Below are positions 4,422 to 54,220 of a DNA stretch of 64,000 bases, one piece after another. This DNA is from Allomeiothermus silvanus DSM 9946 (GTDB lineage: Bacteria; Deinococcota; Deinococci; Deinococcales; Thermaceae): contig NC_014212.1 of the NCBI RefSeq assembly GCF_000092125.1, forward strand, positions 3,000,279 to 3,064,278. The letters are read 5' to 3'. The notes below the pieces were generated by a model. That model was not told the DNA's origin. It saw only the letters and a list, made by a program, of their open reading frames with translations, and searched no databases. The first letter of the stretch is position 1. Every line of letters starts with the position of its first letter. The position numbers and the translations under genes are program-made.

Positions 4422-4460
4422 AGTGAAGCCGCACCCGCGGCCCGGCGATGCCGGTACTCA
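4422..4460 (+). repeat. 39-bp double-hairpin element, copy 1
   Basis: Begins AGTGAA and ends GCCGGTACTCA. The first stem is GCCGC/GCGGC, the second CCGGC-GAT-GCCGG. It lies antisense inside the aminotransferase relic, where it contributes 13 codons (HEYRHRRAAGAAS) without shifting the frame. It shares the ends and second stem of the other copies, but its first stem differs in sequence while keeping its pairing. Confidence 0.85.
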
Positions 4461-4619
4461 TGCGCGACCTCCTGCGCCGCCGAGCGCAGCCGGGGTTGCG
4501 CGAGCTTCGAACTCGCCGTGAGCCCGGACAGTTCGCGCAGCAAGAAGCGGGCCGGGTGTCGCTCGATCTCGTTGCGGATGGCCTGCTGGGCCTCGAGTAC
4601 CCGCCAGGGGGTCACCCCC

Positions 4620-4658
4620 TGAGTACCGGCGCTAGCCGGGTCGCTATGCGAATTCACT
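4620..4658 (-). repeat. 39-bp double-hairpin element, copy 2
   Basis: On the minus strand it reads AGTGAATTCGCATAGCGACC and continues to GCCGGTACTCA. The stems are TCGC-ATA-GCGA and CCGGC-TAGC-GCCGG. It adds VNSHSDPASAGTQ to the aminotransferase relic in frame. It is base-identical to the copy in deoC at 8655-8693. Confidence 0.9.
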
Positions 4659-4783
4659 ACGGTGCCGTGGTTGAGGTAGACGGCCTGGGGCTCGAGGGGG
4701 AAGTGCTCAAGCATGGTTCTGCCAAAGCTCATCACCCCCGATTATCCCCGAACCGCGCCGAAGAAGACTGCACGGAATTGCCC

Positions 4784-6016
4784 TCAGCCCAACGCCTTGA
4801 ACCGCTCCAGCACCCTCAGCACCTGGTCAATATCGGCCTGGGTGTGCTCCGCCGAAACCTGGAAGCGGATGGACTCCTCACCTTTGGGCACCACCGGGTA
4901 GACGATGGCGGTAGCGAGGATTCCCTCCTCGCGCAAAAAGCGCACTAGCTGGCCCGTTCGTTCGCCGTCGCGAAGCACCAACGGCACCACCGGGTGATCG
5001 CCGGGGAAGCTCTCATATCCGAGCTGGAGAACACCCTCGCGGAAGCGCCGGGTCATCGCCCGCAGGTGGGCCAGGCGGGTCTGGCCTTCGGGGCTCTCTA
5101 GAAGCTCGAGCGCCGCTCCCGCCGCCGCTGCCTCGCCGGGGGTGATGGGGTTGGAGTAGATATACATGGGGGAAGTCTCGCGGAAATACGCGATGAGGGC
5201 GGAGGGGCCCACTACGTAACCCCCGTTCACCCCAAAAGCCTTGCCCAAGGTTCCCACCAGGATGTCGGCCTGGGCTTGGGTGTACTCTTCGGTTCCCCGC
5301 CCGGTCGCCCCGAACGCTCCCACCCCGTGCGAGTCATCCACGACCAATAGGGCGTTCTCGGGGAAGTGATGGTCGTACTTCCGCACCAGCAGGGCAATCT
5401 CGGACAAAGGCGCGTGCGAGCCGCGCATGCTGAAGATGCCGTCGGTGATGACCAAAGCCCGCCTGGCTCCCATCGCGGCGGCTTGGTGCAGGGCAGCTTC
5501 CAGGTCAGCCAGGTTCAGGTGCTTGTAGACGTACTTCTCCCGAGGACGCGCGAGCCGGATGGCGTTGATGATGCAGTTGTGGTTGAGTTCATCGCTGATG
5601 AGAACCGTCTCGGGCGTCACCAGCGGGACCACCACGCTTAGGATGGTGGCGTACGCCGAGGAGAAGATCATGGCGGCCTCGCGGGCATGGAAACGGGCCA
5701 GGCGGCCTTCAAGTTCCACATGCGGCTCATAGGTCCCGCTGATAAAGCGCACCGCCCCAGGGCCAACCCCGAAGCGCTCGATAGCCTCTTCCTCGGCTTT
5801 TTTCAGGGCCGGGTGCTGGGCCAAGCCCAGGTAGCTGTTGGAGTTCATGCGGATGAAAAGCTTTTCGCCGTGGCCTAAAAGCCGGTAGCGGGGGCCTCGT
5901 TCCCCCTGGGCAGGCACCACCTCGGTCACCACCGGTTCGTGGCCCTTGCGGCGGCCCTGCGCCTCGAGGTCCTCTACAGCCTGTTGGAGCACGGGAGTCA
6001 ACCGGTCTAGCGGCAT
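4784..6016 (-). CDS. kbl: 2-amino-3-ketobutyrate CoA ligase / alpha-oxoamine synthase
   Basis: The 410-residue PLP enzyme of the alpha-oxoamine synthase family shows NSNSYLGLAQHP, the DDSHGVGAFGATGRG loop, and the PLP lysine in GTLGKAFGVNGGY. With CoA it cleaves 2-amino-3-oxobutanoate, the unstable product of threonine dehydrogenase, to glycine and acetyl-CoA. Its ATG follows the stop of the dehydrogenase gene by one base, so translation is probably coupled. That neighbour favours Kbl over the related BioF; thermophile homologues can have relaxed specificity, so a BioF role is not fully excluded. Confidence 0.85.
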   Translation of the reverse strand: MPLDRLTPVLQQAVEDLEAQGRRKGHEPVVTEVVPAQGERGPRYRLLGHGEKLFIRMNSNSYLGLAQHPALKKAEEEAIERFGVGPGAVRFISGTYEPHVELEGRLARFHAREAAMIFSSAYATILSVVVPLVTPETVLISDELNHNCIINAIRLARPREKYVYKHLNLADLEAALHQAAAMGARRALVITDGIFSMRGSHAPLSEIALLVRKYDHHFPENALLVVDDSHGVGAFGATGRGTEEYTQAQADILVGTLGKAFGVNGGYVVGPSALIAYFRETSPMYIYSNPITPGEAAAAGAALELLESPEGQTRLAHLRAMTRRFREGVLQLGYESFPGDHPVVPLVLRDGERTGQLVRFLREEGILATAIVYPVVPKGEESIRFQVSAEHTQADIDQVLRVLERFKALG

Positions 6017-6017
6017 C

Positions 6018-6995
6018 TCAAACCCCCTGCACAGCCCAGCGGGCTGATAGCTGCGCGAGCATGTCAGCAGTCATCGCGGCCAGGTCGAAAGCCGGTTTCC
6101 AGCCCCATTCCTCGCGAGCGGCGGAATCGTCCAGGGTATGCGGCCAAGAATCCGCGATGGCCTGGCGCACCGGATCAATCTGGTAGTGGATTTTGAAGTG
6201 CGGCAGGTGCTTGCGGATCTCGGCAGCAAGCTCAGCCGGGGTGCAGCTAAAAGCGGCCACATTGAAAGCGTTACGGTGGCGGAGCCGGGCCGGGTCGGCT
6301 TCCATCAGCTCGAGCGTGGCCCGGATGGCATCGGGCATGTACATCATCGGCAGCCGGGTGTCGGGCCCCAGGAAGCTGGTATAGCTGCCCTGGCGCAAGG
6401 CTTCCCAGAAGATCTCCACGGCGTAGTCGGTGGTTCCCCCCCCGGGCGGGGCGGTGTAGGAGATGAGACCGGGGTAGCGCAGGCCGCGCACGTCCAGGCC
6501 AAAGCGCAAAGCGTAGTAGTCGCAAAGGAGTTCTCCGGCTACTTTGGTCACGCCGTAGAGCGAACCCGGGCGCTGGAGGGTGTCCTGCGGGGTGAGGTCT
6601 TTGGGTGTGGAAGGGCCAAAAGCCGCAATGGAGCTGGGTACGAAGACCCGGCATCCGTAAGCCCTAGCTACTTCCAGCACGTTGTAGAGGCCTTCCATAT
6701 TGACCCGCCAGGCCAGCTCGGGCTGGGCCTCGGCTTTGGCCGAGAGGATGGCCGCCAGGTGGTAGAGGGTACCCACGTTGTACTTTTCGACCACTTCCTC
6801 GAGCCTCGAGCGGTCGGTGCAGTCGAGGACCTCGAAGGGGCCTTCCCGGATCGGCCTATCGGGGGGCAAACTTCGCACGTCGGAAGCCACCACCCGCTCC
6901 ATGCCCAAGCGCTCCTGCAAAGCAGGAACCAGTTCCGAGCCCACTTGCCCTAGGGCTCCGGTGACGAGGATATTTTGCGCACGCTTCACTTCCAT
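6018..6995 (-). CDS. tdh: L-threonine 3-dehydrogenase, NAD-epimerase type
   Basis: The 325-residue short-chain/epimerase-fold protein has the NAD-binding motif VTGALGQVGSEL near its N-terminus and the catalytic pair in SLYGVTKVAGE (Tyr-x3-Lys). The family oxidises L-threonine to 2-amino-3-ketobutyrate using NAD. I chose the ATG at 6995 (MEVKRAQNILVTG) because GGAGGGG lies just upstream; a longer reading to 7067 has no such site. It is the first gene of a two-gene threonine-to-glycine operon with kbl. Confidence 0.83.
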   Translation of the reverse strand: MEVKRAQNILVTGALGQVGSELVPALQERLGMERVVASDVRSLPPDRPIREGPFEVLDCTDRSRLEEVVEKYNVGTLYHLAAILSAKAEAQPELAWRVNMEGLYNVLEVARAYGCRVFVPSSIAAFGPSTPKDLTPQDTLQRPGSLYGVTKVAGELLCDYYALRFGLDVRGLRYPGLISYTAPPGGGTTDYAVEIFWEALRQGSYTSFLGPDTRLPMMYMPDAIRATLELMEADPARLRHRNAFNVAAFSCTPAELAAEIRKHLPHFKIHYQIDPVRQAIADSWPHTLDDSAAREEWGWKPAFDLAAMTADMLAQLSARWAVQGV

Positions 6996-7072
6996 ACCCC
7001 TCCATCCTATAGCGCGCCCAGCCCAAGAGCGCATCCTCGGGTTTCCCCTGTCCCTAGCAGGGTTCAACGGCC

Positions 7073-7106
7073 CGTCACAGGTCTGTCACAAGGGGCTTTC
7101 TATACT
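7073..7106 (+). promoter_or_regulatory. Pho-box-like activated promoter of the small lipoprotein gene
   Basis: CGTCACA (7073-7079) and TGTCACA (7084-7090) are direct repeats with a 4-bp gap, an 11-bp period. Exactly 10 bp later comes TATACT (7101-7106), and there is no good -35 box. This is the geometry of PhoB-activated promoters (7-4-7 repeats, 10 bp, -10 box). The sequence shows the layout; activation by an OmpR/PhoB-family regulator is inferred. Confidence 0.5.
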
Positions 7107-7154
7107 GCCGGGCGTGCTTGGGGAGGACCCTGAGCAAAGTACGGGAGGAACACG

Positions 7155-7571
7155 ATGAAAAGACAACTGATCGCAGGTTTGGTAGGGATGTTGGCTTTGG
7201 TGATGGCGGGCTGTGGCGGCGCCGGGGGCGGCAACGTCGGTCAGGACATCATCAGCGGGAAAGTCAGCCGGGCCGGGGGCTCCGTCGCGGGTACTCTCGT
7301 CGCAGCCTGCGACGTCAACGATCTGTGCAACCAGCAAGACCCCGCCGCCGACGGCAGCTACAAGCTCAGCGGGCTCAGGTCGGGGCAGAGCTATGCGATC
7401 ATCGCCATTCAGTTCGTGGACCCAGACAACAACCCCGACTTCGTGGGCATCTACTCCGCCGACGGCAAGAACATCACCCCGGTCACGCCCCCCAAGAGCA
7501 ACGTCAACTTCGCCCTCCAGGCGGTGACCGCTGGGAGCCTCGAGGTCAAACCGCAGTTTCTGCACCGCTAA
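7155..7571 (+). CDS. Small lipoprotein with a beta-sandwich-like domain
   Basis: The 138-residue protein begins with a lipoprotein signal peptide ending in the lipobox LVMAGC (Cys at residue 22) and a Gly-rich linker. The remaining ~110 residues (ISGKVSRAGGSVAGTLVAAC, then DGSYKLSGLRSGQSYAI) look like a carboxypeptidase-regulatory or transthyretin-like beta-sandwich. It should be lipid-anchored on the cell surface or in the periplasm. GGGAGG precedes the ATG by about 8 bases. The role is unknown; the Pho-box-like promoter raises a possible link to phosphate stress. Confidence 0.7.
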   Translation: MKRQLIAGLVGMLALVMAGCGGAGGGNVGQDIISGKVSRAGGSVAGTLVAACDVNDLCNQQDPAADGSYKLSGLRSGQSYAIIAIQFVDPDNNPDFVGIYSADGKNITPVTPPKSNVNFALQAVTAGSLEVKPQFLHR

Positions 7572-7586
7572 GGTGTAGGAGCACCG

Positions 7587-7811
7587 ATGAACGCTCGGCT
7601 TTCTCGCGTGTACGTGGTGCGGATCTGGCTCGAGCCCACCCAAGGAGGCGAGGGGGTCTGGCGGGCTTCGGTCACCGAGACCCGCACCCAGGAGCGGAGG
7701 TATTTCACCAACCCCGAAGAACTCAAACAGTTCCTCGAGAGGTTGTTTCGCTGCGCGAAAGCAGCGAGGTCCAAACGGCCCCACCCCATCCATCCGAGCC
7801 CGGCTAAGTAG
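7587..7811 (+). CDS. Small conserved-looking protein of unknown function
   Basis: The 74-residue ORF starts at an ATG 8 bases after TAGGAG, 15 bp after the lipoprotein gene, so the two are probably cotranscribed. The N-terminal 50 residues (YVVRIWLEPTQGGEGVWRAS, TRTQERRYFTNPEELKQFLE) have the make-up of a small alpha/beta protein that I have seen as an uncharacterised family in thermophiles. The tail is basic and Pro-rich. No function is assigned. Confidence 0.55.
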   Translation: MNARLSRVYVVRIWLEPTQGGEGVWRASVTETRTQERRYFTNPEELKQFLERLFRCAKAARSKRPHPIHPSPAK

Positions 7812-7915
7812 CTCCACAAAGACGGGATGGGTGTGCGGTTGGGTCAGCCACCCCTCCCCCACCCACTATTTTTCTATCCTGCATGCTTAGGATAGGCCCG
7901 CCCAGCCGTGCCGCT

Positions 7916-8698
7916 TCAGTAACCGCTCTTCAAACCGCCCTCACCCGTCGCCCGAACCCCTCCGGCCTTGCGCGCTTTGAACTCCTCGAGGATCGCGGCG
8001 GTGGCGGTAGCCCCTACCCGGGTGGTGCCTACGCGCATCACCTCGAGCAAGGCATCCAAGGTGCGCACCCCGCCCGCTGCCTTGATTTGCACGTGCGGCG
8101 AGACCGCCTCGCGCATGAGTTTGAGATCCTCGAGGGTCGCCCCGGAGGGGGCGAAGCCGGTGGAGGTCTTGACGAAATCGGCTCCCGCCTGCTCAGAAAG
8201 CTGGCAGCCCAGCACCTTCTGCTCCTCGCTCAAGTAGGCGTTCTCGAGGATCACCTTGACCAAGGCCCCACCCCTCTTGGCGACTTCGACCACCGCCTGG
8301 ATGTCCCCCAGCACGTACTCGGCCTCGCCGCCCCGCAACCGACCGATGTTGATGACCATGTCCAGCTCGACCGCGCCCTGCTCCATCGCCAGCTTGGCCT
8401 CGAAGACCTTGGTGGCGGTGGCCGAGCTTCCGTGGGGGAAGCCCACCACGGTTCCGACCTTGACGCTCGAGCCCCGCAATGCCTTGGCCGCGAGTTCTAC
8501 GTCACAGGGCTTCACACACACCGAGGCCACCCGGTAGCGCTCGGCCAGCTCGCAGCCCGCGAGGACCTCGGCGGGGGTGAGTTCGGGGCGCAACAGCGAG
8601 TGGTCGATCATCTGCGCGACCTGTTCATAGCTGAGGGTTTCTGCCGTAATCTCTTGAGTACCGGCGCTAGCCGGGTCGCTATGCGAATTCACTGGCAT
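7916..8698 (-). CDS. deoC: Deoxyribose-phosphate aldolase with a 13-residue N-terminal insertion
   Basis: The 260-residue DERA TIM barrel carries the Schiff-base lysine in FVKTSTGFA, the second lysine in IKAAGG, and VELDMVINIG. It cleaves 2-deoxyribose 5-phosphate to acetaldehyde and glyceraldehyde 3-phosphate in deoxynucleoside catabolism. The N-terminus reads MP, then VNSHSDPASAGTQ, then EITAETLSYEQVAQMIDHSL. The inserted 13 residues are a 39-bp element directly after codon 2. An ORF without them would begin MPEITAETL. The insertion is outside the barrel and is probably tolerated. The gene precedes, and is likely cotranscribed with, the sugar isomerase genes read from the right. Confidence 0.88.
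   Translation of the reverse strand: MPVNSHSDPASAGTQEITAETLSYEQVAQMIDHSLLRPELTPAEVLAGCELAERYRVASVCVKPCDVELAAKALRGSSVKVGTVVGFPHGSSATATKVFEAKLAMEQGAVELDMVINIGRLRGGEAEYVLGDIQAVVEVAKRGGALVKVILENAYLSEEQKVLGCQLSEQAGADFVKTSTGFAPSGATLEDLKLMREAVSPHVQIKAAGGVRTLDALLEVMRVGTTRVGATATAAILEEFKARKAGGVRATGEGGLKSGY
8655..8693 (-). repeat. 39-bp double-hairpin element, copy 3 (in deoC)
   Basis: Identical to the copy at 4620-4658. It lies two codons after the deoC start and is read in frame as VNSHSDPASAGTQ. Because it lies so close to the start codon, its two hairpins could also affect translation initiation. Confidence 0.9.
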
Positions 8699-8713
8699 GG
8701 ATTTCTCCTAGGG

Positions 8714-9628
8714 CTAGCTCACGAAATTCCTGAGGAAACGCCCGGACTGCACCAGCGCCCGCTTGCGGTCCTCGAGCGAGCCCTCATAAGCCCGGTCTTC
8801 GACCTCGATGCAGACCGGGCCTGAGTAGCGGGCCTCGGTAAGGTTGGCGAAGAAGTGGGTCCAGTTCACCTCGCCCAGCCCCGGCAGCTTGGGGGTGTGG
8901 TACTCGAGCGGGGTCGCCAAAATCCCTACCTGCCGCAGCTTGTCGCGGTCGATGCGCACGTCCTTGGCGTGGACGTGGAAGAGCTTGTCCTTGAACTCGA
9001 GCAAGGGCCAGGCCGGGTCCATCATCTGCCAGACCAGGTGGCTGGGGTCGTAGTTGAGGCCAAAGTGATCGGAGGGGATACGGCTGAACATCTCACGCCA
9101 GATGACCGGGCTCACCGCTAGGTTTTTGCCGCCCGGCCATTCGTCGCTGGTAAAGAGCATGGGGCAGTTCTCGATCCCGACCTTTACCCCCTCCCGCTCG
9201 GCGTGCCGGATGATCTCCGGCCAGCGCTCGTCGAAGAGGGCCCAGTTGTCCTTCAAGGATCGGCTGGGCTCCCGCCCGATGAAGGTATTCATCCGCCCGA
9301 TTCCCAGCCTTGCCGAGGCGCTGATGACTTTTTTGATGTGCTCGAGGTAGACGCTGGCCTCTTTTTCGTCGGCTACCAGCGGGTTGGGGTAGTAGCCCAA
9401 ACCCGAGATCGAGACCCCGTACTTCTGCATAAGCCCCTGGATCCGCTCGACCTCGGCGTCGTCCAGCTCGTTCACATCGATGTGGGTGACCCCGGCGTAG
9501 CGGCGCTCGGCCTTTCCTTTGGGCCAGCACATCACCTCTACGGTGTCGAAGCCTTGACGGGAGGCGAACTCGAGCACTTCCTCGAGGCCGAGATCGGGGA
9601 GAATCGCACTGACAAAACCTAGCTGCAT
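8714..9628 (-). CDS. Sugar phosphate isomerase/epimerase, AP-endonuclease-2-like TIM barrel
   Basis: The 304-residue protein has the family's metal-ligand signatures: [29 protein letters not shown] and the late [10 protein letters not shown]. Members isomerise or epimerise sugars, inosose or keto-sugars and usually stand beside Gfo/Idh/MocA dehydrogenases. Here such a dehydrogenase gene lies 12 bp upstream on the same strand and deoC lies downstream, so all three probably form an operon. The exact substrate cannot be read from the sequence. Confidence 0.8.
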
Positions 9629-9640
9629 AGGGTGGCTCCT

Positions 9641-10795
9641 CTAATACCTGACCTTGATCCATTTGCCCTTCTTGCTGCTCTCGAGGATCGCTTCGCACAA
9701 GGCTAGTTCCTTGTGGCCGTCCTCAAAGGTCGCATAGAGCGGGTTTTTGCTGGGCTTTCCCGCCTTGATGTCGGCATAGACAGCGCGGTAGAGCTGTTTG
9801 AAGGTGTCGGGGAAGCCCTCGTTGTGGCCGCCGGGGTAGCTGGTGTAGTGGGCAGCCTCGCCCTCTAAGAGGCTGGGGTCGCGGATCAGGGTACGGTTGG
9901 CGGCGTTGCGCTCCCCGATCCACAGCTCGTTGGGGCGCTCGCCGTTCCAAGCCAAAGCCCGCTCGGACCCCGCGATCTCCCACTCGATGCGGTTTTTGCG
10001 TCCAGCGGTAACCTGGGAAACGGTGAGTACCCCGCGCTTCCCGCCCGCAAAGCGCAAGAGTACCGAGGCGTAATCCTCGGTGGTGATCTTGACCGGCTCG
10101 GTGGCGGCTTCCCGGCTACCTTTCTTGCCGCTGAAGGTCTCTACCGAACCTGCCGGGGGACGCTGCCGGATGGGGTGCACGGTGTAAAGGTCGGCCATCA
10201 CCTCCTCTACTTCGAGCCCGGTGATAAAGGTCACCAGGTCCAGCCAGTGGGTGCCGATATCGCCGATGGCCCGCAGCTCTCCCCCATCCTCGGCCAATAC
10301 CCGCCAGTTGAAGTCGGTAGGGTAGAGGAGCCAGTCTTGCACGTAGCTTCCCTTGACGTGAAAGACCTCCCCGATCTCACCCCGCCGTACCATCTCGCGG
10401 GCTTGCAGGCAGAGCGGATAGAAGCGGAGGTTGTAGTTGACCGCCGTCACCAGCTCGGGGTACTGCTGGGCGGCGGCGACGAGTTCTTTGGTCTCCTGGG
10501 TGTTCATGCCCAAGGGCTTTTCGCAGACCACGTGCTTGCCCGCTTCCAGGGCTTGCAGGACCTGCTCGCGGTGGAAGCGGTTGGGGCTGGTGAGGTGGAC
10601 GACCGCGACTTCCGGATCGGAGAGCATCTCGGCGTAGCTCGAGTAGCCCCGCTCGAGCCCAATGTTTTGCGCGGCCTGGCGCGACTTTTCCGGACTCGAG
10701 CCCAGCACCCCCTTGACCTTGACCCCGATCCGCCGCAGGGCCTCTACGTGTACCGGGCCGATAAAACCTGTGCCGACCACCCCGACTTTGATCAT
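9641..10795 (-). CDS. Gfo/Idh/MocA-family NAD(P)-dependent oxidoreductase
   Basis: The 384-residue protein starts with a Rossmann motif ([17 protein letters not shown]), has the family signature [11 protein letters not shown] near residue 95, and an active-site-type region DIGTHWLDL. Such enzymes oxidise or reduce sugars and polyols. It is the first gene of the leftward operon with the TIM-barrel isomerase and deoC. The substrate is unknown; the set resembles inositol or disaccharide oxidation clusters. Confidence 0.82.
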
Positions 10796-10848
10796 CTATC
10801 GCCTCCTGGATAGGGCTAAAACAAAAGCTCATCGCTGTGGGAGTACTC

Positions 10849-11100
10849 CTAAAATATCCTTGGCCCGCCCCCACAAAGCAAGTACCGTCCAAGTCCAAAC
10901 GTCGGCACCCCTAGCAGCACGCCGCGCTCGGTGAGCACAAGGATTTGCGAGGCGTAAGTGATCCTCCGGCCACGCTCCCAATAGATCGTGCTCCAAGATC
11001 CCAGGAGTGAGGCTGTAATTGGGGTAGGCCCGAGGCTCCAGAGGGTTTCCTTGAGCTGGAGGTAGAGCGGCAACGGGACGCGCTTCTGGGAGCTTCATAA
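10849..11100 (-). pseudogene. Possible regulator remnant between the sugar operon and the IS
   Basis: The 329-bp gap 10796-11124 has no intact gene. On the minus strand a 74-codon stretch contains LPLYLQLKETLW and [22 protein letters not shown]. These weakly recall the start and the winged-helix end (TERGVL...G.GTF) of GntR-family regulators. Related pieces fall in different frames, so a decayed regulator of the sugar genes is possible. This is a weak call from pattern only. Confidence 0.25.
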
Positions 11101-11124
11101 GGCTTCTTTCCCGAGCTGGCGGAC

Positions 11125-12264
11125 TGAACCCGGACAAACACATGTGAGACTCTAAGCTGGGATAAAAAGAGGGGAACCGACCAGGAAAGGAGGTTCCCCA
11201 GGTGCAGTTTACCACCGTTGGCCGAGAGATATGGAGAGGCGCTAGACAAGCACAGAGGCTGGCCGAGGCCAACGCAAGCGACCCAGAGGTCCAGGAACGT
11301 CTGCGCAAGCTCCGACTGGTCAAAGCCCTGCGTGAAAGTAAAAAGAGCTGGAAGGAGATCCAGGACCTGGTCGGGATCAGCCGGGCCACCTACCACCGCT
11401 GGCAAAAAGCCCTAAAAGAAAAGGGCCTGGCTGGACTCAAACCCCGCTCCCGCCGCCCTAAGCACCTGCGCACAAAGGTCCACTGGACCCCAGGGCTGCT
11501 CATTAGAATAGAAACTCTCCGCAAGGAAAACCCCACCTGGGGACGCTGGTCCATCTGGCTTACCCTCCGCAAGGAGGGTTTCCAGATGAGCGAACGCACG
11601 GTGGGGCGCATCCTGGCCTACCTGGAGAAGCACCGACGTATCGAGAGCGTGGCCGGCTACCTGGCCCGGACTCAAAGAGGGAAGCTAAAGCGAAGGGTAA
11701 ACCGGCCCTACGCCAAAAGGAAGCCCCGAGGATACGAGGCCAGGGCTCCTGGGGACCTGGTCCAGGTGGACACCCTCACCCTGACCTTAGGACCGGGAAG
11801 CATGGTCAAGCACTTCTCGGCGATTGACCTCCATAGCCGGTTTGTCCTGGCGGAGGTGCACAGCCGGGCCACGGCTAAGCTTTCTGAGGGGTTCTTGTCC
11901 TTGCTTCTGGCCAGGGCCCCTTTTCCCATCCGGGCCATCCAGGTGGATGGGGGCAGCGAGTTCATGGCCGAGTTTGAGGAGGCCTGCTGTGCTCTGGGGA
12001 TTGCCTTGTTTGTGCTACCGCCGAGGAGTCCTAAACTCAATGGTCACGTGGAGCGGATGCAGCGGACCTTCAAGGAGGAGTTCTACACCCGGCCTTTGCC
12101 CACCCCGCTCAGCGAGCTGCAGGCAGAGCTGGATACCTACCTGGACTACTACAACCGCCGAAGGCCTCACATGGCCCTGGGGGGTCTTGCTCCGCTGGAG
12201 TTTTTGGCTAAGATGCAAGAGGAGTCGGTTCCTCAAAGAGTCTCAAATGTGTTGACCGATTACA
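11125..12264 (+). mobile_element. Complete 1140-bp insertion sequence, copy A (DDE integrase type, IS481-like)
   Basis: The ends are imperfect inverted repeats of about 28 bp sharing the internal block GAGACTCT, running from TGAACCCGG at the left to ...CGATTACA at the right, so the termini are 5'-TG and CA-3'. It is flanked by the 5-bp target duplication CGGAC (11120-11124 and 12265-12269). A second copy of the same length lies at 60946-62085, with target duplication GGTTT. The shared boundary of the two copies fixes the ends exactly. Intact ends and target repeats indicate recent transposition. Confidence 0.93.
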
Positions 12265-12272: not shown

Positions 12273-12464
12273 ACATCCGGTGGTTCGTACCTTTATATTC
12301 CACCCTGGATCGGCTCACCAAGCAAGTGCGAGAAGGTAGGGTTCCGTTTGGCGTCTTGAGCGGCATCCAGCATGAGCACCGGGGCCGCGGGCCGGGGTTG
12401 ACCCCAGAAGGGTGGAGGGTAGAATCGAGTCCCTCACGGTTTCGATTTAGCAAGGTTGACGATC

Positions 12465-24413: not shown

Positions 24414-24640
24414 CCCGACCACCTCCCGTGGTGGGGTGCAACCGGGCGGTGTTCGGCCGGTTGCACCACTAGCTCCCTGTGCCCCTTGGTGCCCATATTG
24501 GGTGACACAGTTCGTCGCCTCCGAACCCCCCGCGGACACATCCTGCCGCTAGGGTCTACAGCTACTCTGCCCGAAAAAGGGTTGGATTAGGGTTGCACCG
24601 GGTGAACGTTGCCCCGTAAACACCGCCCGCGCGTTTACAG

Positions 24641-27671: not shown

Positions 27672-27674
27672 GCC

Positions 27675-28829
27675 ATGCCTTTGTACTTGCAGTTGGCCTT
27701 GATCTACGGTACTGCCCCTGGCGGTGCTCTTGAATGGCTATCGCGGCAAGGCGAACCTGCTCGAGGGAATCGGGGCTTACCAGTGAAGGGCCAACAGGCC
27801 CCCGGCGATGCCGGGACTCAGGGGCATGCCCCACCATCCCAGCCTGCCGGGGTCCCCTTCGAAATCAGCCACCGCACCTTCTTACGCGCCGTCCACCCTG
27901 ACGACCACAAACGCCTGAAAACCAAAGTGCGGCAGGTACTCGAAACGGGCGAACTCTACGAGGACGAGTTCCGGGTAGTCTTGCCGGGCGGGCAGGAGCG
28001 CTGGCTGGCGGTGCGCGGACGGGTCTACCGCAACCGCAGCGGGCAGCCCGTGCGCATGGCCGGGATCACCCTCGATACCACCCAGCGCCGTCTGGCTGAG
28101 GAGGCCCTACGCCAAAGCGAAGCCCGGCTGCGCGAGATCAACCAAGCCCAGCAGCGTTTCGTGGCCGACGCCGCTCACGAACTACGGGCACCGCTCACGG
28201 CCATCCAGGGCAACCTCGAGTTGCTCTATCGCTACCCGGAGATGCCCCCCCAAGACCGCATGGAGTCGGTGATCCAAGCCCTCCAGGAGGCCCGCCGGCT
28301 GGGACGGCTAGTAGCCGATATGCTGGCCTTGGCGCGGGGCGACGCGGGACACCGGCTCAAGCGCGAGTCCATCGAGCTAGACCGGGTGCTGCTGGAAGCT
28401 TTCGAGAGCACCTGCCACCTCAGCCAGCAGCACCGTCTTACCCATGAGCTGGAGCCCGTGCGGTTGGTGGGAGATCGGGATTACCTCAAGCAGTTGGCGC
28501 TGATCTTGCTAGACAACGCGCTTAAGTACACCCCACCTGGGGGGCAAGTGCACTTGGCCCTCTCCCGTCAGGAGGGCCACGCCGAGCTGCAGGTTTCAGA
28601 TACCGGAAGCGGAATCGCCCCCCAGGACCTTCCCCACGTCTTCGACCGTTTCTACCGGGCCGATCAGTCGCGCCGCCGCGACCCTGGGGGGAGTGGGCTG
28701 GGGCTTTCCATCGCTAAGTGGATTGTCGAGCAACACGGCGGGGAAATCTGGCTCGAGAGCGAACCCGGCCAGGGCACCCGTGCCGTCGTGCGGCTGCCCT
28801 TGCCTGGGGCGGGGCGCAGTGCGTTTTAG
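27675..28829 (+). CDS. PAS-domain histidine kinase with damaged N-terminus
   Basis: The 384-residue protein contains a C-terminal piece of a PAS domain (FLRAVHPDDHKRL to MAGITLDTTQRR), a HisKA domain with the phospho-His in ADAAHELRAPLTAI, and a HATPase domain (DNALKYTPPGG, DTGSGIAPQDLPHVFDRFYR, GSGLGLSI). The first ~60 residues look abnormal. In the +1 frame, bases 27712-27783 read LPLAVLLNGYRGKANLLEGI and then GAYQ, a likely original segment. A 39-bp element follows directly, and the front half of the PAS domain is absent. The catalytic core is intact. Confidence 0.8.
   Translation: MPLYLQLALIYGTAPGGALEWLSRQGEPARGNRGLPVKGQQAPGDAGTQGHAPPSQPAGVPFEISHRTFLRAVHPDDHKRLKTKVRQVLETGELYEDEFRVVLPGGQERWLAVRGRVYRNRSGQPVRMAGITLDTTQRRLAEEALRQSEARLREINQAQQRFVADAAHELRAPLTAIQGNLELLYRYPEMPPQDRMESVIQALQEARRLGRLVADMLALARGDAGHRLKRESIELDRVLLEAFESTCHLSQQHRLTHELEPVRLVGDRDYLKQLALILLDNALKYTPPGGQVHLALSRQEGHAELQVSDTGSGIAPQDLPHVFDRFYRADQSRRRDPGGSGLGLSIAKWIVEQHGGEIWLESEPGQGTRAVVRLPLPGAGRSAF
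27782..27820 (+). repeat. 39-bp double-hairpin element, copy 4 (in the histidine kinase)
   Basis: AGTGAAGGGCCAACAGGCCC runs on to GCCGGGACTCA. The stems are GGCC-AACA-GGCC and CCGGC-GAT-GCCGG. It is read as [13 protein letters not shown] in the kinase frame. It stands exactly where the N-terminal homology breaks. Confidence 0.88.
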
Positions 28830-46159: not shown

Positions 46160-46178
46160 CGTTGGGTAGGGGGTATGT

Positions 46179-46511: not shown

Positions 46512-46583
46512 GGGCCGTTCTGGCTTTGCCGGAATGTACGGTGCCTTACCCGCCCTGGCCAAAGCCAGGGCTACCCTTAGCCT

Positions 46584-47180: not shown

Positions 47181-47206
47181 GTATACTAAGGGCGAGGTGA
47201 GTCGAG

Positions 47207-47515
47207 ATGACTGCCGAGGCCCAGGCGGTGCAGATAGCCTTACAGGCTTACCGTGACTGCCAGGAATTGGAAGAGCGCGAGTACGCAGAGCAGTACGACG
47301 AGGTCAAGCGGATGGAGGATGAGGCCCCCGCACCTGATCCGTGCGCGCTCCTTTTCAATGAGTTGGTGGAGGCCTGTATCCGCTACGTGGAAGCGGGCGG
47401 GAACCGAGCCGACCTCGATCTTGGCGAATACCGCAGCGCCGTTTACCGGCGGATGGATGAGTTCCGCTCGGTGCAACGATGGGAGGACGAAGGGGGAAGC
47501 ACCCCACCTGCCTAA
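47207..47515 (+). CDS. Acidic helical protein of unknown function
   Basis: The 102-residue, Glu/Asp-rich, predominantly helical protein (ELEEREYAEQYDEVKRMEDE) has no recognisable domain. The ATG follows GGCGAGGTGAG by a few bases and the gene lies 26 bp after the molybdoenzyme gene, so cotranscription is likely. It converges with the VanW gene. Confidence 0.55.
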   Translation: MTAEAQAVQIALQAYRDCQELEEREYAEQYDEVKRMEDEAPAPDPCALLFNELVEACIRYVEAGGNRADLDLGEYRSAVYRRMDEFRSVQRWEDEGGSTPPA

Positions 47516-47520
47516 AGGTT

Positions 47521-49296
47521 TTACCGGCCTGGATGGGCTTGGCTCGGCCCTACCAAGTAGACCGCCTGCCAGGGACGGTAGCGGGTGGAGAGTACCTCGG
47601 TGCGCGTGCCCGAAGCGTCGGTAATGGTGCGGCTCAGGCGAACGCTGTAGCCGTCAGCGGCCCAGTCTACTTGTTTGCGAACCCCAGGGCGGAGGCTATC
47701 GTCCTCGATGTACTTAGCGGGGGGGTGGGGGGTGCGCGAGAGAATGACCGGGTCGGATATCGTCACCGTGCGCCCGATGGGTAGGCCCCACACGCTCACC
47801 GTCAGGCTCACCTTGTCAGGATCGTAATAGGTACGAAGGAGCAGCGGGGAGGGGGTGTCGTTTTTCATCCGCAGGTCCAGGTAAGGCTGGTATACGGCGG
47901 CGTCGAAACCGATGATGGGGTCGTACCAGTGCACCCGGTAAGCATGGGGATTGCGTTCCACCACCGGAAGGCCGGTCTTGTATAAAGCGCGGAAGGTGGT
48001 GGTCGAGACCTGGCAGACCCCGCCCCCTACCCCAGGCACGGTACGCCCGCCAGAGATCACCAAACCCTCCTTGAAGCCCGTTTCAGGGGCGATGTCGCCA
48101 ACAACTTGGTTGAAGGAGAAGGTCTCGCCGGGGGCGATGATGTACCCATCAAGGCGAGAAGCCGCGGTGCGTACATTGTGAATGCGTTCGGCGCTCGAGC
48201 CTTTGAAGGTGGTGGTGGCGCTCGAAAGCAGCACCAGCTGGCTGGGCTCGGGCAGGTCGGCGGCCTTGAGGGTGGGCTCGACCGTTACGACCGGCAAGTC
48301 CAAGGTGCGGGCGTCGGGTTGCCAGAGGAGGGGCACCAGGGCTTCCTCGGCGGCCTTCAGATCGAGTTTCCAGCCGGGTTTTTCCCCTACAACGGTGAAG
48401 GCCAGGGTAGCCGGCAGCGAGGAGGAGGTCCCCCATACGTAGTGCGCGTTTACCGCTTCTTGGTCGTAGGCCTTGGCTACTTGTCGCAGCAGCTTGCGTA
48501 CAGCGGCGGGGTTGGCCTCGAGCCCTTCTTTTTTCAACACCATCAGCCCGGCGACCTGCTCGGGCCGGAGGGTGTAGGTTTTGAGCGCGCCCCCGGGTTG
48601 GGTGTAGTTGAGGGTGATGGGGCGCAGGAGGGCGTTGGCCTCGGCGGCACGGGCCTCGTACTCGCTGGCCTGGACGCTCGCTGCTACCTCCTCCATGGGT
48701 AGTTCAAGGGTAGCCGTGCTGGGATCGGCCAGAAAGCTGGCCGCCGCTCTCTCCACGTTGAAGCGCCGCCCCGGGGTATCGGGCGTCACTACGAAGCGAC
48801 CGTTCTTGAACTCGACCTCGGCGTTTTTGGGGGGCTGCTTGAGGGCCAGGTTGAGCCGCTCGAGCCGCCGGTAGAGCACAGCCTTTTCCACCACCCCCGA
48901 GACCGGGACATTCACCCCCTGCCGCCAAGCGGCCCAGCGCTCGCGCAGCGAGTCCGCCAGCCCGCCCTCACGCCCGATGCGGAAAGCGGCCTGGGCGGTG
49001 GCCATAGCATCGGCCCTCCAACCCAACTCGGCGGCGCTCAGCTGGTAAGTTCGCCCCCCAGCCTGCACCGCCACCAGGGACCGGTTGGTGAGCCGGCCCT
49101 GAGCAGCGATTTGGGCGGCGGCCTCTTCTACCGTCATCCGCCCCACCGCGACCCCATCCGCCATCACTCCGGGGAAGATCCGCGAGCCGAAGTAGAGTTC
49201 AATCCCACCGAGCAGCACGGCGATACCTAGCACACCGGCCAGGGCCACTTTGCGGCGGGTCTTTGCCGCGCGAATAGGGGGATGCGGGGGATTCAT
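47521..49296 (-). CDS. VanW-family protein with peptidoglycan-binding-like repeats
   Basis: The 591-residue protein has one N-terminal membrane anchor (VALAGVLGIAVLLGGIELYF), two PG-binding-4-like regions (MTVEEAAAQIAAQ, FNVERAAASFL), and a VanW domain (ETFSFNQVVGDIAPETGFKE, GGGVCQVSTTTFRAL, NPHAYRVHWYD). A G5-like tail follows. It is probably anchored outside the membrane and acts at the cell wall; the precise function of VanW is not known. Confidence 0.87.
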   Translation of the reverse strand: MNPPHPPIRAAKTRRKVALAGVLGIAVLLGGIELYFGSRIFPGVMADGVAVGRMTVEEAAAQIAAQGRLTNRSLVAVQAGGRTYQLSAAELGWRADAMATAQAAFRIGREGGLADSLRERWAAWRQGVNVPVSGVVEKAVLYRRLERLNLALKQPPKNAEVEFKNGRFVVTPDTPGRRFNVERAAASFLADPSTATLELPMEEVAASVQASEYEARAAEANALLRPITLNYTQPGGALKTYTLRPEQVAGLMVLKKEGLEANPAAVRKLLRQVAKAYDQEAVNAHYVWGTSSSLPATLAFTVVGEKPGWKLDLKAAEEALVPLLWQPDARTLDLPVVTVEPTLKAADLPEPSQLVLLSSATTTFKGSSAERIHNVRTAASRLDGYIIAPGETFSFNQVVGDIAPETGFKEGLVISGGRTVPGVGGGVCQVSTTTFRALYKTGLPVVERNPHAYRVHWYDPIIGFDAAVYQPYLDLRMKNDTPSPLLLRTYYDPDKVSLTVSVWGLPIGRTVTISDPVILSRTPHPPAKYIEDDSLRPGVRKQVDWAADGYSVRLSRTITDASGTRTEVLSTRYRPWQAVYLVGPSQAHPGR

Positions 49297-49380
49297 CTAT
49301 CTCCTAGCTTAGGGGAACGCTTCGCCTCAGACTACCCAGTGAGGGTTGCAAAGGGGTGACCCGGAATGGGAGCATGTGAT

Positions 49381-50052
49381 CTAGCGAACCGCGAAGGGGT
49401 TGAAATTGGTGTCGCGGTCGTAATAATCCTCGCGCTCGGCACGTTTCAAGAACCCCACTACCGCGTAGGTGAGGGGGGTAAAGAGCGCCTCCACCCCCAC
49501 CTTGAACACGTAGTTTGACACGAAAACCGTCCACAGCAGGGCATTATCCCACACCCCGTAGAAGGCGATGAGCAAAAAGAGGCCGGTGTCGAGCCCCTGA
49601 GCGATGAGGGTCGAGCCGAGGGTGCGGGTCCACAGCCAGCGCCCCTGGGTGGCGATTTTGAGCTTTGCCAGCACGTAGCTGTTGACGAACTCGCCCACCC
49701 AGTAAGCTACCAGGCTGGCCAGCACGATGCGCGGCACCAGGCCCAGGATGGCCGAGAAAGCCTGAGCAGTGCTTTGCTGGTCGGGAGGGGTGGGTAGGGC
49801 ATTCACGATGCCGAAGGTCAGGGTCGCCAGTATCAGCAAAAAGAATCCTGTCCAGATCACCCGCCTCGAGCGCTTGTACCCATACACCTCGGTCAGCACG
49901 TCCCCGAAGATGTAAGCGAGCGGGAACAGGATGGTCCCGCCATCGAAGGTGAAAGGCCCCAGCAGCACTACCTTGGTGGAGGCGATGTTGGAAACGATCA
50001 GTACCACCACGAAGAGGGCGGTGATGAAGTCCAAATAACGGTAGGCCCGCAT
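49381..50052 (-). CDS. Queuosine precursor transporter (YhhQ/COG1738)
   Basis: The 223-residue polytopic protein has DFITALFVVVLIVSNIASTK, FDGGTILFPLAYIFGDVLTE and VAYWVGEFVNSYVLAKLK, all typical of the family. It imports pre-Q0/pre-Q1 or queuine and so complements tgt in this window. TACAAT ends 8 bases before the ATG and no Shine-Dalgarno is seen, so it is probably leaderless. Confidence 0.88.
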   Translation of the reverse strand: MRAYRYLDFITALFVVVLIVSNIASTKVVLLGPFTFDGGTILFPLAYIFGDVLTEVYGYKRSRRVIWTGFFLLILATLTFGIVNALPTPPDQQSTAQAFSAILGLVPRIVLASLVAYWVGEFVNSYVLAKLKIATQGRWLWTRTLGSTLIAQGLDTGLFLLIAFYGVWDNALLWTVFVSNYVFKVGVEALFTPLTYAVVGFLKRAEREDYYDRDTNFNPFAVR

Positions 50053-50121
50053 AGCGTCCGATTGTACAACGTTCGCGGGGGCGCTTCACCTCTACCTGGG
50101 CGCATGACCTAGCAGCCGGAT

Positions 50122-50658
50122 CTATTCTGAGCGAATCGAGGTGATGAAAGGCAGGTTACGGTCGTACTGCGCCCGGTCCAGGCCGTAGCCATAGACGTAA
50201 GCGTCCTCGATCTCGAAGCCCAGGTAGTGAATCGGGACTTCGATGCGGCGGCGGGTCGGTTTGGAGAGAAGGGCAGCGATCTTGACCGAGGCGGGCTGAC
50301 GGGCCTCCAGGTAGTGCATCAGGTAGTTGAGGGTGATACCGGTGTCCACGATATCCTCCACCACGATCACGTCCTTACCGCTGATGGGGTAGCGCAGATC
50401 CTTGACCAGCTCGACCTCGCCGCTGGTCTTGGTGTCATCGCCATAGGAGGAAAGGGCCAGGAAGTCCATCGAAACCGGCAGGTCAATCCGGCGCACCAGA
50501 TCCGCCATAAAGATAAAGGCCCCGTTCAAGACGCAGATCAGGTGAGGTTGTTTCCCCTTGTAGTCTTGGGTGATTTGGGCCCCGAGTTCACGGATGCGCT
50601 CTTGGATCTGCTGCTCGCTGATCTGGACGAGGCCGTCCCCGGCTTGGAAGATGCTCAC
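50122..50658 (-). CDS. hpt: Hypoxanthine-guanine phosphoribosyltransferase
   Basis: The 178-residue enzyme shows the PRPP-binding motif VIVVEDIVDTGITL, ICVLNGAFIFMADLVRRI, and the flexible-loop region SSYGDDTKTSGEVE. It salvages hypoxanthine and guanine. The GTG start is 7 bases after TACAAT, another leaderless arrangement. The RluB-like gene ends 22 bp upstream. Confidence 0.92.
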   Translation of the reverse strand: MSIFQAGDGLVQISEQQIQERIRELGAQITQDYKGKQPHLICVLNGAFIFMADLVRRIDLPVSMDFLALSSYGDDTKTSGEVELVKDLRYPISGKDVIVVEDIVDTGITLNYLMHYLEARQPASVKIAALLSKPTRRRIEVPIHYLGFEIEDAYVYGYGLDRAQYDRNLPFITSIRSE

Positions 50659-50680
50659 AAAGGTGATTGTACCCGAAGGC

Positions 50681-51790
50681 TCAGGGTTTTTTGCCCCGCC
50701 GTTTCAGGGCAGCGGAAGTACTGCGCTGCTTTATGCCAGTGGCGGCATCTTTGCGCAAAGAAGCGGGCCGGGTCCTTTCCCCTGGCGTTTTGGTGGAGGA
50801 GGTGGATTTGGAGCCCAGACCTTTGGGCTCGAGCTCTGCCGTCCTCTTGCCCTGATAGGGCCGCCGGCTAGTCCCCCAACGGCCTGATCTTTGGGCGGAG
50901 CGATCCGATTCTCGAGCCCACCTCGCCCAGCGGTCGGTTCCGGCTTGGGGGGTATCGCCGGGGGATTTTGTCCGCACTGTGAAGCCCGCTCGGCCCTGCT
51001 CGGTTCGGCTTGGCGGTTTTATGGCTCGTGACTCCTCTCTCTGCTGGGCGAATTTGGCGGGCTTAGCCTTGGCCCAGCCCTCTTTTTTGCGGGGCTTTAG
51101 GGGTTTTTGTCCCTGCAAGAGCCCGATCTCTTCCGGGGTCAGGTAGCGCCACTCGCCGGGATTGAGCTTCCCCAACTTGATCGGCCCCACCTGCAAGCGC
51201 ACCAGCCGGGTCACCGGGTAGCCCAGCCTCCCCAGCATCCGCCGCACCTCGCGCTTTTTCCCCTCGGCCATGACGATCCGAGCCCCCTCTTGGGTGGGTT
51301 CGGCCTCGAGGGCCTGGGCCAGCCCGTCGTCCAGTGCCACGCCCTCCACCAGCCGTCTGCAATCGGCCTCGGACACCCTGCCGTGCTTGCACCAGGCCCG
51401 GTAGACCTTGCGTACCCCGTAGCGGGGATGGGTAAGCTTTAGGGTCAGGTCGCCGTCATTGGTAAGCAGCAAGAGCCCCTCGGAGTCTTTGTCGAGGCGG
51501 CCCACCGGATGCAGGCCAGGTACGTCGGGCACGAGCTGATAAACGGTACGCTCGGCGTGGGGGTCGCTCTTGGTGGTGGTCACGCCCACCGGTTTATGTA
51601 GGGCAATCACCACTTTTTTCTCTGGAAGGCGCACCCGTTCGCCGTCGAGGCACACCACGTCGCTCTCGGACACGCTCGAGCCGATCCCGGCGATCTGATC
51701 GTTGATGGTGACCCGCCCTTCGCGAATCAGGTCTTCGGCCTTGCGGCGGCTGGCAACCCCAGCCCGGGCGAGAAATTGTTGTAAGCGCAT
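50681..51790 (-). CDS. RluB/RsuA-family pseudouridine synthase with a long basic tail
   Basis: The protein has an N-terminal S4 domain (MRLQQFLARAGVASRRKAED), the catalytic Asp in GRLDKDSEGLLLLTNDG, and GKKREVRRMLGRLGYPV. It isomerises a uridine in rRNA. The core ends near residue 230. The remaining ~140 residues are low-complexity and rich in Lys, Arg, Ser, Thr, Pro and Gly, and probably disordered RNA-binding. Such tails occur in RluB, but this one is long. Confidence 0.87.
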   Translation of the reverse strand: MRLQQFLARAGVASRRKAEDLIREGRVTINDQIAGIGSSVSESDVVCLDGERVRLPEKKVVIALHKPVGVTTTKSDPHAERTVYQLVPDVPGLHPVGRLDKDSEGLLLLTNDGDLTLKLTHPRYGVRKVYRAWCKHGRVSEADCRRLVEGVALDDGLAQALEAEPTQEGARIVMAEGKKREVRRMLGRLGYPVTRLVRLQVGPIKLGKLNPGEWRYLTPEEIGLLQGQKPLKPRKKEGWAKAKPAKFAQQREESRAIKPPSRTEQGRAGFTVRTKSPGDTPQAGTDRWARWARESDRSAQRSGRWGTSRRPYQGKRTAELEPKGLGSKSTSSTKTPGERTRPASLRKDAATGIKQRSTSAALKRRGKKP

Positions 51791-51918
51791 AGTAGCCCAT
51801 TCTACTCGTAGCGAAGGCCCTAAGACGAGGTCTCGGTGCCTTGGGCGCTAACCTGGAAAAACTCCACCACCGCTTGCCCGAGCTAAAATTGGCGGCAAAG
51901 TAGAGATAAGCCTGGCCT

Positions 51919-52728
51919 TCAGAGGGGGGATTTCTTGCTGAATTTGGGGTTACGTTTTTCCTTGAGCGACTCGAGCCCCTCGCGTGCGTCCGGCCCCATA
52001 AAACCCAGGAATTCCAGGGCCAGGCTGGCGTCGAAGGTCGGCCCGGCCAGCCTTAGCCAGTTGTTGAGGGCGTACTTGGTCCAGCGGATTGCGGTCGCGG
52101 AGCCCTGGGTGAGCCTTTGGGCCAGCTCGAGCGCTTTGGCGTAGACCGCTTGGTCATCCACACACAGCGAGACCAGCCCCAGCCGCTCGGCTTCCTCACC
52201 GCTCATGGACTCGTTCAAGAGCAGGTAATACTTCGACTTGTTCAGCCCGATCAAGAGGGGCCAGATGATCGCCGAGTGATCCCCCGCCGCTACCCCCAGC
52301 CGGGTGTGCCCGTCCAGGATACGGGCTTTCTTCCCCGCTACGCTGATATCCGAAAGGAGCGCCACCGCGAGCCCTGCCCCCACCGCCGGGCCTTCGATGG
52401 CCGCCACCACCGGCTTGGAGCAGTTCAGGATGTTGTAGACGAGGTCCCTGGCTTCTTTCCAGACCCGCACCAGGGTCTCGTAATCGCGGATCATCTCCTC
52501 GATCATGGCGAAGTCGCCCCCGGCGCTGAAAACACCGCCCTCGCCCCGCACCAGCACTGCGCTGATCTCCGCCTCGGCATCGATGTCGCGCCATACATAG
52601 GCCAACTCGCGGTGCATCGTGGCATCGGCGGCGTTGAGGCGGCCTGGGTTGGAGAGGACGACCTCCAGCACCCCCTCGGCGGGCTCGGCAAACTTTAGGC
52701 GGGAATAGGCGGATTTCCAGTCGCTCAT
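51919..52728 (-). CDS. Crotonase-superfamily protein (enoyl-CoA hydratase-like)
   Basis: The 269-residue protein has the crotonase oxyanion motifs [16 protein letters not shown] and [19 protein letters not shown]. The usual catalytic Glu region (PGAGGTQRL type) is replaced by [17 protein letters not shown], so hydratase activity is uncertain. The enzyme may be an isomerase or thioesterase variant. ATG 52728 has GAGGA nearby; the frame is open to 52830. It is divergent from truB. Confidence 0.8.
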
Positions 52729-52844
52729 AGGGCAATGTCCTCTGCTTGATTCTGCCTCATCTAAAGCCATGGGGGAAGCGGCCGCACGGTGGGATCTGGT
52801 TGGCTTTGCGCTGGCGCGACGGTGTAGCATACAATCCCTCTGAC

Positions 52845-53813
52845 ATGGCCTTATTCGCCGTGGACAAACCGCTCGGCATCACCTCTCACGACGTGGTGGA
52901 CGCTGCCCGCAGGCGCCTTGGAACCCGCCGGGTGGGGCACACCGGAACCCTCGACCCACTGGCGACGGGGGTGCTAATCCTGGCGAGCAACAGTTCGACC
53001 AAGCTGGTTCCTTTTCTCTCCGCTGAAGATAAGGAGTACCTGGCCTGGGTCTCGTTTGGTGCGACCACTGAAACCCTTGACGCCGAAGGCCCGGTTACGG
53101 CGGAGGCCCCGGTGCGGTTCAGCAAAAAAGACCTCGAGACCACCCTCCCACACTTCCTTAGCCTCACCGAGCAGGTACCCCCCGCGTATTCGGCGGTCAA
53201 GATAGGAGGGGTCAAGGCGTACGAAGCCGCCCGAAAGGGAGAGAGCCTGGAACTCACCCCCAGGCCGGTCAAGTACCTCGAAGTTACCCTCCTGGCCTTC
53301 GAACCTGCCCCCAAAACCTACCGCATCGGCCCCTCACCGAACGGTTGGGAGATCACCCCAGTGAAAGGCCGACAGGCCCCCGGCGATGCCGGTACTCAGC
53401 GGGGCCGCCTGGTCCAGCTTCCCAGGGCACTCGGGACGTACCCCACCGCGGTGATTCGTTTGGTGGTGGGTAGCGGAACCTACGTGCGGGCTTTCGCCCG
53501 TGATCTGGGAGAACTTCTGGGTACGAAGGCCTTCTTATCAGGGTTGGTACGAACCCGGGTGGGCCGGGTGGGGCTTGAGCGCTGCGTGCCCCTGGAGAAA
53601 ATTGACCCGGAGCACCCCCTAGAGGAGACCCAGGCCCTCTCCTTCCCGCTGGTACAACTCTCTCATGCCGAGGTCAAGCGGGTGCTCGAGGGTGTTCCGC
53701 TCCCAATCCCGGCCCAAGGGTACGTGGCCCTAGTAGATAACCGCCGTCAGCTCATCGCCATCGCCGAGGGGGATGGCTTCAAGCTCAAGATCAAGCGGGT
53801 ATTCAAGAAGTAG
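52845..53813 (+). CDS. truB: tRNA pseudouridine-55 synthase with a 13-residue in-frame insertion
   Basis: The 322-residue protein has [13 protein letters not shown], the catalytic Asp in [52 protein letters not shown], and a C-terminal PUA-like domain. It modifies U55 of tRNAs. The insertion [13 protein letters not shown] (53361-53399) sits between NGWEITP and RGRLVQLP, in a loop of the catalytic domain. The gene is otherwise intact, so a functional enzyme that tolerates the element is expected. ATG 52845 lies 9 bases after TACAAT, with TTGCGC 18 bp further upstream. Confidence 0.92.
53360..53398 (+). repeat. 39-bp double-hairpin element, copy 5 (in truB)
   Basis: AGTGAAAGGCCGACAGGCCC continues to GCCGGTACTCA. 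The stems are GGCC-GACA-GGCC and CCGGC-GAT-GCCGG. It adds exactly 13 codons to truB. Confidence 0.9.
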
Positions 53814-53979
53814 CTACGAGCAGGGTGGTTTAACAAGTGTCATAAGAAATCCTTGTGATGTGTTCTGCTATTTGGGGCCCCACCCGCGGCGTAGTTTCGC
53901 GGCGAAAGCCGGGTAGCGAGTCCAGGGGAGCAGGCGTAGCAGAGGGGCTTTGGCTTGCCCTAAAGCGGAACGCTACCCC

Positions 53980-54220
53980 TGAGTACCGGCGCCAGCCGGG
54001 GGCCGATGGCCCTTCACTTGAGTACCGGCGCCAGCCGGGGGCCGATGGCCCTTCACTTGAGTACCGGCGCCAGCCGGGGGCCGATGGCCCTTCACTTGAG
54101 TACCGGCGCCAGCCCAGGTTACCGGCAAGCACTAGGCCCGCTTGAGTACCGGCCATCGCCGGGTCGCTATGCGACTTCACTTGAGTACCGGCCATCGCCG
54201 GGTCGCTATGCGACTTCACT
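53980..54220 (-). repeat. Array of 39-bp double-hairpin elements (five complete, one partial)
   Basis: The complete units are 53980-54018, 54019-54057, 54058-54096, 54143-54181 and 54182-54220. A partial unit starts at 54097 and diverges after about 18 bases. The first three are identical (stem GGGCC-ATC-GGCCC on the minus strand). The last two are identical to each other but carry another first stem (TCGC-ATA-GCGA), like the copies in deoC. Unit ends abut without spacers, so this is not a CRISPR array. The surrounding gap (53814-54273) has no other supported gene. Confidence 0.92.

Follow-up and report, generated by a model that had tools for sequence, protein, structure and literature searches.

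The Rickettsia palindromic elements (RPEs) are palindromic repeats located in frame in many unrelated genes, with several sequence families per lineage, and are thought to be selfish (PMC10969869, PMC3733652). The mitochondrial double-hairpin elements (DHEs) and GC clusters are composed of two GC-rich hairpins; they are mobile, occur singly and in tandem, measure ~40 nt (GC42) and display loop variants (PMC4478555, PMC2800124), and direct repeats of AG or ACT flank the four commonest yeast GC clusters (PMC4478555). REP/REPIN sequences are 20-40-bp hairpin units found as doublets and tandem clusters, which possess no autonomous gene and for which a clover-like fold has been proposed for transposition (PMC3116915). 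REPs carry GTAG or CGTC tags, are extragenic and are linked to RAYT (PMC3733652, PMC3116915). The BOX elements of Streptococcus pneumoniae are composites in which a tandem internal module is repeated a variable number of times (PMC3049150). The present analysis concerns a 39-bp double-hairpin element, AGTGAA...ACTCA, repeated in a 64,000-nucleotide stretch (“the window”, positions 3,000,279 to 3,064,278 of NC_014212.1) of the Meiothermus silvanus DSM 9946 genome (3,721,669 bases; PMC3035272). It likely represents a family of very small mobile DNAs that are non-autonomous and canonically 39 nt long, and whose folded single strand would be recognised by an enzyme acting in trans.

Cyanobacterial small dispersed repeats (SDRs) of 21-27 bp occur in Nostocaceae, show a site preference and lie, for some of them, inside larger repeats. 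The M. silvanus element is likewise very small, site-preferring and partly found within larger repeats; it differs, in a comparison made by description only, by its two strongly covarying hairpins and its frequent in-frame insertion in genes. SDRs are cited in PMC3116915 and PMC3733652. The likeness to RPEs, proposed in a first-pass annotation made from the window's letters, is borne out: the element lies in frame in protein-coding genes (folK, truB, mutS2, hutI, deoC, BatA/vWA, and others), in an unrelated lineage and at a much smaller size. RPEs, set apart here by description, are ~150 bp long and belong to Rickettsia, whereas the present element has 39 bp, two hairpins, a defined target and tandem arrays, and belongs to Thermaceae. 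With DHEs and GC clusters it shares two hairpins, mobility and the lack of a gene, as judged from covariation and empty sites; in contrast to them, it is bacterial, and the empty sites read show no flanking direct repeats. The literature searched yielded no bacterial DHE. The remark of the first-pass annotation that it knew of no named family with this structure holds within this lineage, but the double-hairpin elements of fungal mitochondria are similar. Hairpin doublets and tandem clusters are also shared with REP/REPIN, as would be movement in trans; however, the AGTGAA/ACTCA ends contain neither a GTAG nor a CGTC tag, no RAYT was found and many copies lie inside genes. The 38- and 39-bp modules found inside a miniature inverted-repeat transposable element (MITE), termed MITE a below, recall the tandem internal module of BOX, although boxB is an internal module whereas the 39-mer is independently mobile. 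Unlike a DDE-type MITE, the element makes no target duplication and has only 3-bp end complementarity, while its carrier MITE a has a TNA duplication. Because the element lacks a tested defining feature of each of RPEs, DHEs/GC clusters and REPINs, it is best placed as a variant among the very small mobile repeats that are non-autonomous.

The element is abundant. The pattern AGTGAA-N28-ACTCA has 63 exact matches in the whole M. silvanus genome, against 0 for the reversed-pattern control. A covariance model built from ten distinct copies gives 81 matches at E<=1, of which 4 belong to a related family and 1 is weak, leaving ~76 copies of the 39-bp family, located on the chromosome and both plasmids. 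More than 100 copies are present in M. hypogaeus, so the scarcity of further copies that would have spoken against a family is not observed. Independently of the ends, pairs of abutting perfect 5-bp hairpins number 13 in the window versus 0-3 in ten Markov-chain simulations, and 57 versus 3-7 simulated in 864 kb of chromosome (stretches totalling 0.8 Mb, plus the window); 36 of these 57 are members of the 39-bp family.

Mobility is documented by empty sites. Flanks with the element removed were used as queries against relatives, and the matching stretches were then read. A sister species (G001) lacks exactly 39 bp in folK, deoC, a nagK-like gene, a BatA/vWA gene, mutS2, and two other places. 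The elements in truB and rfbB are common to M. silvanus and G001; the truB site is without element in G002 (C. roseus), G006, and G027 (M. hypogaeus). Neither target-site duplication nor deletion was found at the empty sites read in relatives, and the ends are exact at every insertion examined, with no flanking deletions. Orthologues with and without the element, whose comparison the first-pass annotation had recommended, thereby define exact 39-bp boundaries. The target consensus across 48 distinct sites is CC|RGNG (chi-square values of 18-55 at positions -2, -1, +1, +2, and +4, and of 15 at +3). The element itself starts with AGTG, which fits RGNG, and ends with CA; its own left edge is therefore similar to the target, and head-to-tail arrays, which reach six units, would arise in this way.

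Two insertions are shared between genera. M. silvanus shares the hutI element with two Calidithermus species (39/39 identical); it is absent from G001 and M. hypogaeus. In an HMA-type protein of M. silvanus and C. chliarophilus, a 42-nt form interrupts the CxxC metal-binding motif (loci L041, L123, L170); the HMA-type protein of C. roseus does not contain it. The same residues at the same sites in other genera had been named as evidence against mobility, and they do exist in these two cases; yet, because other near relatives lack the element, these copies are to be read as inherited or horizontally transferred insertions, not as ancient protein sequence. The hutI flanks of M. silvanus and C. 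chliarophilus differ by only ~4% (L043, L036, L037), and for this reason the hut region likely moved between genera together with the element.

The fold is conserved through covariation. Two loop arrangements exist, 3+4 and 4+3, each totalling 39 nt. In these two classes, 97.4% and 98.5% of cells are paired, with 33 and 40 cells doubly changed, respectively; none of 500 shuffles reached the observed pairing or covariation score in either class, and pairing drops to 27-49% in slid-partner controls. Pairing is thus kept while the sequence changes, as the first-pass annotation had claimed. The first hairpin stem, P2, occurs as GGGCC/GGCCC, GCCGC/GCGGC, GTCGC/GCGAC, and GCCCC/GGGGC, and its covariation is not an artefact of selection, since the search pattern left P2 free. 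The stem has 5 bp in most copies, and the 4-bp forms listed previously (at 4620/8655 and 53360) differ from it only by a broken outer pair. Furthermore, the ends of the element can pair as AGT:ACT, which would form an outer 3-bp stem, P1, absent from that earlier description. P1 is supported by covariation between related families, with equivalents in a second family, GTTGTA...TAACGG (GTT:AAC), and in the 38-bp module of MITE a (AAG:CTT). A 2-nt tail, CA or GG, would remain at the 3' end. The fold is probably a three-way junction, with 3 nt before P2, none between P2 and P3 (the second hairpin), usually 1 nt before the closing strand, and the 2-nt 3' tail.

Hosts identified by Pfam/NCBIfam include FolK, TruB, MutS2, HutI, DeoC, BatA/vWA, a BadF/BadG-type kinase, a tyrosine recombinase, TnpB, a PAS histidine kinase, and HolB; among the in-frame hosts are proteins matching the HPPK, TruB, MutS2, HutI, and DeoC equivalogs. 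The folK gene is the sole HPPK gene of M. silvanus. Aligned to HPPK structures, its product has exactly 13 extra residues, and the element falls inside the conserved PVG loop. Both orientations relative to the host gene occur. Four of the six frames are free of stops in the canonical sequence, as noted at first pass, and the ~20 well-supported gene insertions use only these four frames and never the two stop-bearing ones; the chance of this is ~(4/6)^20, assuming equally likely frames. All these insertions measure 39 or 42 nt, adding 13 or 14 residues. The length of exactly 13 codons given earlier is hence the usual one, but not the only one: a variable-spacing search in M. silvanus found 42- and 37-nt lengths besides 39, and 38-nt forms exist as well. 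As far as could be judged, none of the 37-, 38-, and 40-41-nt forms lies within an intact gene.

Genome comparison thus establishes mobility, precise insertion, a target preference, and two conserved hairpins. In the proposed mechanism, a trans-acting HUH-type transposase or recombinase would recognise the folded single strand, and the element would travel as a 39-nt single-stranded unit. Its insertion is precise, at CC|RGNG and without target-site duplication, and insertions in genes survive only in the four stop-free frames, adding 13 (or 14) residues to otherwise normal proteins. A unit landing in a MITE would also be passively amplified with it. The stems would covary because mobility needs the fold and not the sequence. 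Y1 enzymes of the IS200/IS605 type would account for both the precision and the missing duplication; no link to them was found.

Several observations weigh against this mechanism. No mobilising enzyme was found. The Y1 transposases of the genome are of the IS200/IS605 type and not RAYT, the best one, the only one typed individually, scoring below the RAYT cut-off. They flank no element, except for one element inside a tnpB. Genome G019 has 16 model matches and no detected Y1 gene. Single copies, spread over both arms, are 14 on the plus and 11 on the minus strand, with no visible replication-strand bias. As for the junction, P1 is absent from minimum-free-energy folds, single-strand folding predicting P2 and P3 only, and P1 is suggested by comparison between few families and end types. 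Among 22 genomes, Y1 is present in 10 of the 14 with elements and in 3 of the 8 without, which is only a loose association. A RAYT/REP link was rejected, the Y1 genes being of IS200/IS605 type, non-adjacent and loosely tracking the presence of the element. A by-eye check of element ends versus target for same-strand guide pairing as in IS608 revealed none that was convincing.

Conservation after insertion bears on a different explanation, which we consider unlikely: a structure beneficial to the host at the RNA or DNA level (an mRNA stabiliser, an attenuator, or a protein-binding site), with the gene insertions as co-opted regulatory or protein features. The shared truB and HMA copies are indeed more alike than their flanks. 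In truB, the shared copies agree at 38 of 39 positions, the sole change being synonymous, whereas flank divergence is 20% (P=0.002; P=0.016 at third positions). The HMA element is 42/42 identical against 16% flank divergence (P=0.0008), its third positions not being significant. The divergence of the hutI element differs little from that of its flanks, a weak signal of constraint. Taken as nucleotide-level constraint on the element after insertion, these values are suggestive but do not amount to proof, the third-position test being significant for truB only. Also in favour of a host function, one copy lies in the hutH leader of M. silvanus and two at the corresponding place in M. granaticius (L022, L148). 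However, presence varies between sister species at most sites, the host genes have no common theme and both orientations occur.

Thermaceae are naturally competent, and short structured DNA or cDNA could have been captured during natural transformation or repair rather than moved by an enzyme. That no transposase was found and that no target is duplicated would fit such a capture, which we nevertheless deem quite improbable in view of the exact ends, the lack of flanking deletions and the defined target motif.

The lengths and frames of the gene copies speak in turn against removal of the element from the product, by ribosome bypass or by RNA or protein processing, as for the mobile bypass elements of some yeast mitochondria. 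Hairpins, a size of ~40 nt and positions within conserved motifs (the PVG loop of FolK, and between the two cysteines of CxxC) recall such elements. Confinement to four open frames and to multiples of three (39 or 42), and the absence of the 37-, 38-, and 40-41-nt forms from well-supported intact genes, would however be pointless if the element were skipped, and this explanation appears very improbable.

Equally improbable is that the 39-mer is merely a repeat module of larger MITEs, spread by their transposition and by tandem slippage: most copies by number do sit in MITE a of M. hypogaeus, and arrays occur in MITEs a, b, and c, but the idea is already contradicted for the single gene copies, which have exact 39-bp empty sites and no MITE flanks; moreover, MITE a has its own empty site for the 39-mer, and three unrelated MITE contexts have the same target motif. 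MITE a (M. hypogaeus L062-L097 and M. silvanus loci) has inverted ends, ATACCAGATTCGG...CCGGTAT, and a TNA duplication; inside it, a 38-bp double-hairpin module repeated in tandem gives a ladder of 38-bp steps (198, 236, 274, and 312 bp). Copies without the 39-mer number 81 in C. chliarophilus and are often found elsewhere too, with the junction GACCGWC|AGGGAGG; dozens of M. hypogaeus copies harbor the 39-mer at exactly this junction. The copies free of it indicate that the 39-mer entered a pre-existing MITE a at its usual target and was later co-amplified. One identical 39-mer sequence is shared by MITE arrays and by solitary gene copies that have no MITE flanks. M. hypogaeus copies at contig edges were considered as ends of insertion sequences and rejected, as they belong to MITEs.

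The covariance-model search of relatives, advised at first pass, gave matches in 14 of 61 genomes; these 14 belong to three genera of the family, and sampled genomes from the genus taken as Thermus and from other families of the order gave none. Across 84,980 species searched, the exact 14+13 class is confined to Meiothermus and Calidithermus, and viral contigs and a plasmid collection gave 0 matches. Sister families show a common architecture with different sequence. The 39-bp GTTGTA...TAACGG family has five copies in M. silvanus (C1:2928529-2928918, L052; C1:2922489), three in tandem and one nearby in one PP2C-domain gene, all in frame; weak period-39 matches at C1:2928535, first considered as a protein repeat, are this second family. 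It occurs once in G019 (C235:16124), with alternative 4+3 loops. G019 also displays 38-nt AGTCAA...TACTGG double hairpins, single or in tandem, in small MITE-like repeats with TACGGC...GCCGTA ends (L231-L241). Tentatively, and with rather more doubt than confidence, these could form a Thermaceae superfamily of minimal mobile elements of 38-42 nt folded as three-way junctions (AGTGAA...ACTCA, GTTGTA...AACGG, AAGTTA...CTTGG, AGTCAA...ACTGG). Its members would transpose as folded single strands, with no target duplication and through an undescribed enzymology, and would then be under nucleotide-level constraint inside essential genes.

Within the window, all ten copies with AGTGAA...ACTCA ends reported at first pass are present where it had placed them, but five are tandem units of one intergenic MITE composite (53980-54220) and not independent insertions. 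An open reading frame resembling class V aminotransferases (4112-4741, minus strand) carries two elements in opposite orientations, both in frame: one at 4422-4460 (plus strand, loops 4+3, antisense) and one at 4620-4658 (minus strand, 3+4, sense) between HGTV and GVTP, the latter site being empty in C. chliarophilus. This is probably a decaying gene or pseudogene, since it is apparently frameshifted further downstream. The copy at 8655-8693 (minus strand, 3+4) lies in frame directly after the deoC start codon, with an exact empty site in G001. Those at 27782-27820 and 53360-53398 (both plus strand, 4+3) are in frame in a PAS/histidine kinase gene (27672-28826) and in truB (52731-53810), respectively. 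The MITE b/c composite, on the minus strand at 53878-54267 with approximate outer boundaries, carries both window arrays, all on that strand: three identical units (53980-54096, 3+4, TGGC loop), a truncated unit corresponding to the 3' half of a fourth copy interrupted by the nested MITE c (54097-54114), and two identical units with a GTCGC/GCGAC stem carried by MITE c (54143-54220). As MITE c is nested inside a 39-bp unit (54115-54142 and 54221-54267; L006, L010), the hairpins may in turn serve as insertion sites for another element. No Rfam match to the element scores above gathering in the window, whose only Rfam match is a c-di-GMP-II riboswitch (24446-24531, minus strand, RF01786, 70 bits). 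Identical 39-bp stretches in inverted positions at 11401-12040 and 61215-61809 suggest two copies of one insertion sequence.

The element is among the smallest mobile elements described, and among the smallest whose precise, target-specific insertion is evident from empty sites. It adds coding segments to housekeeping enzymes (FolK, TruB, MutS2) and may represent a route by which new protein segments arise. M. silvanus, a hot-spring bacterium, offers a free-living, culturable system in which to study how a gene-less unit of ~40 nt is mobilised without target duplication, and how frequently proteins gain tolerated peptide segments from mobile elements, a question so far discussed mainly for the obligate intracellular Rickettsia.

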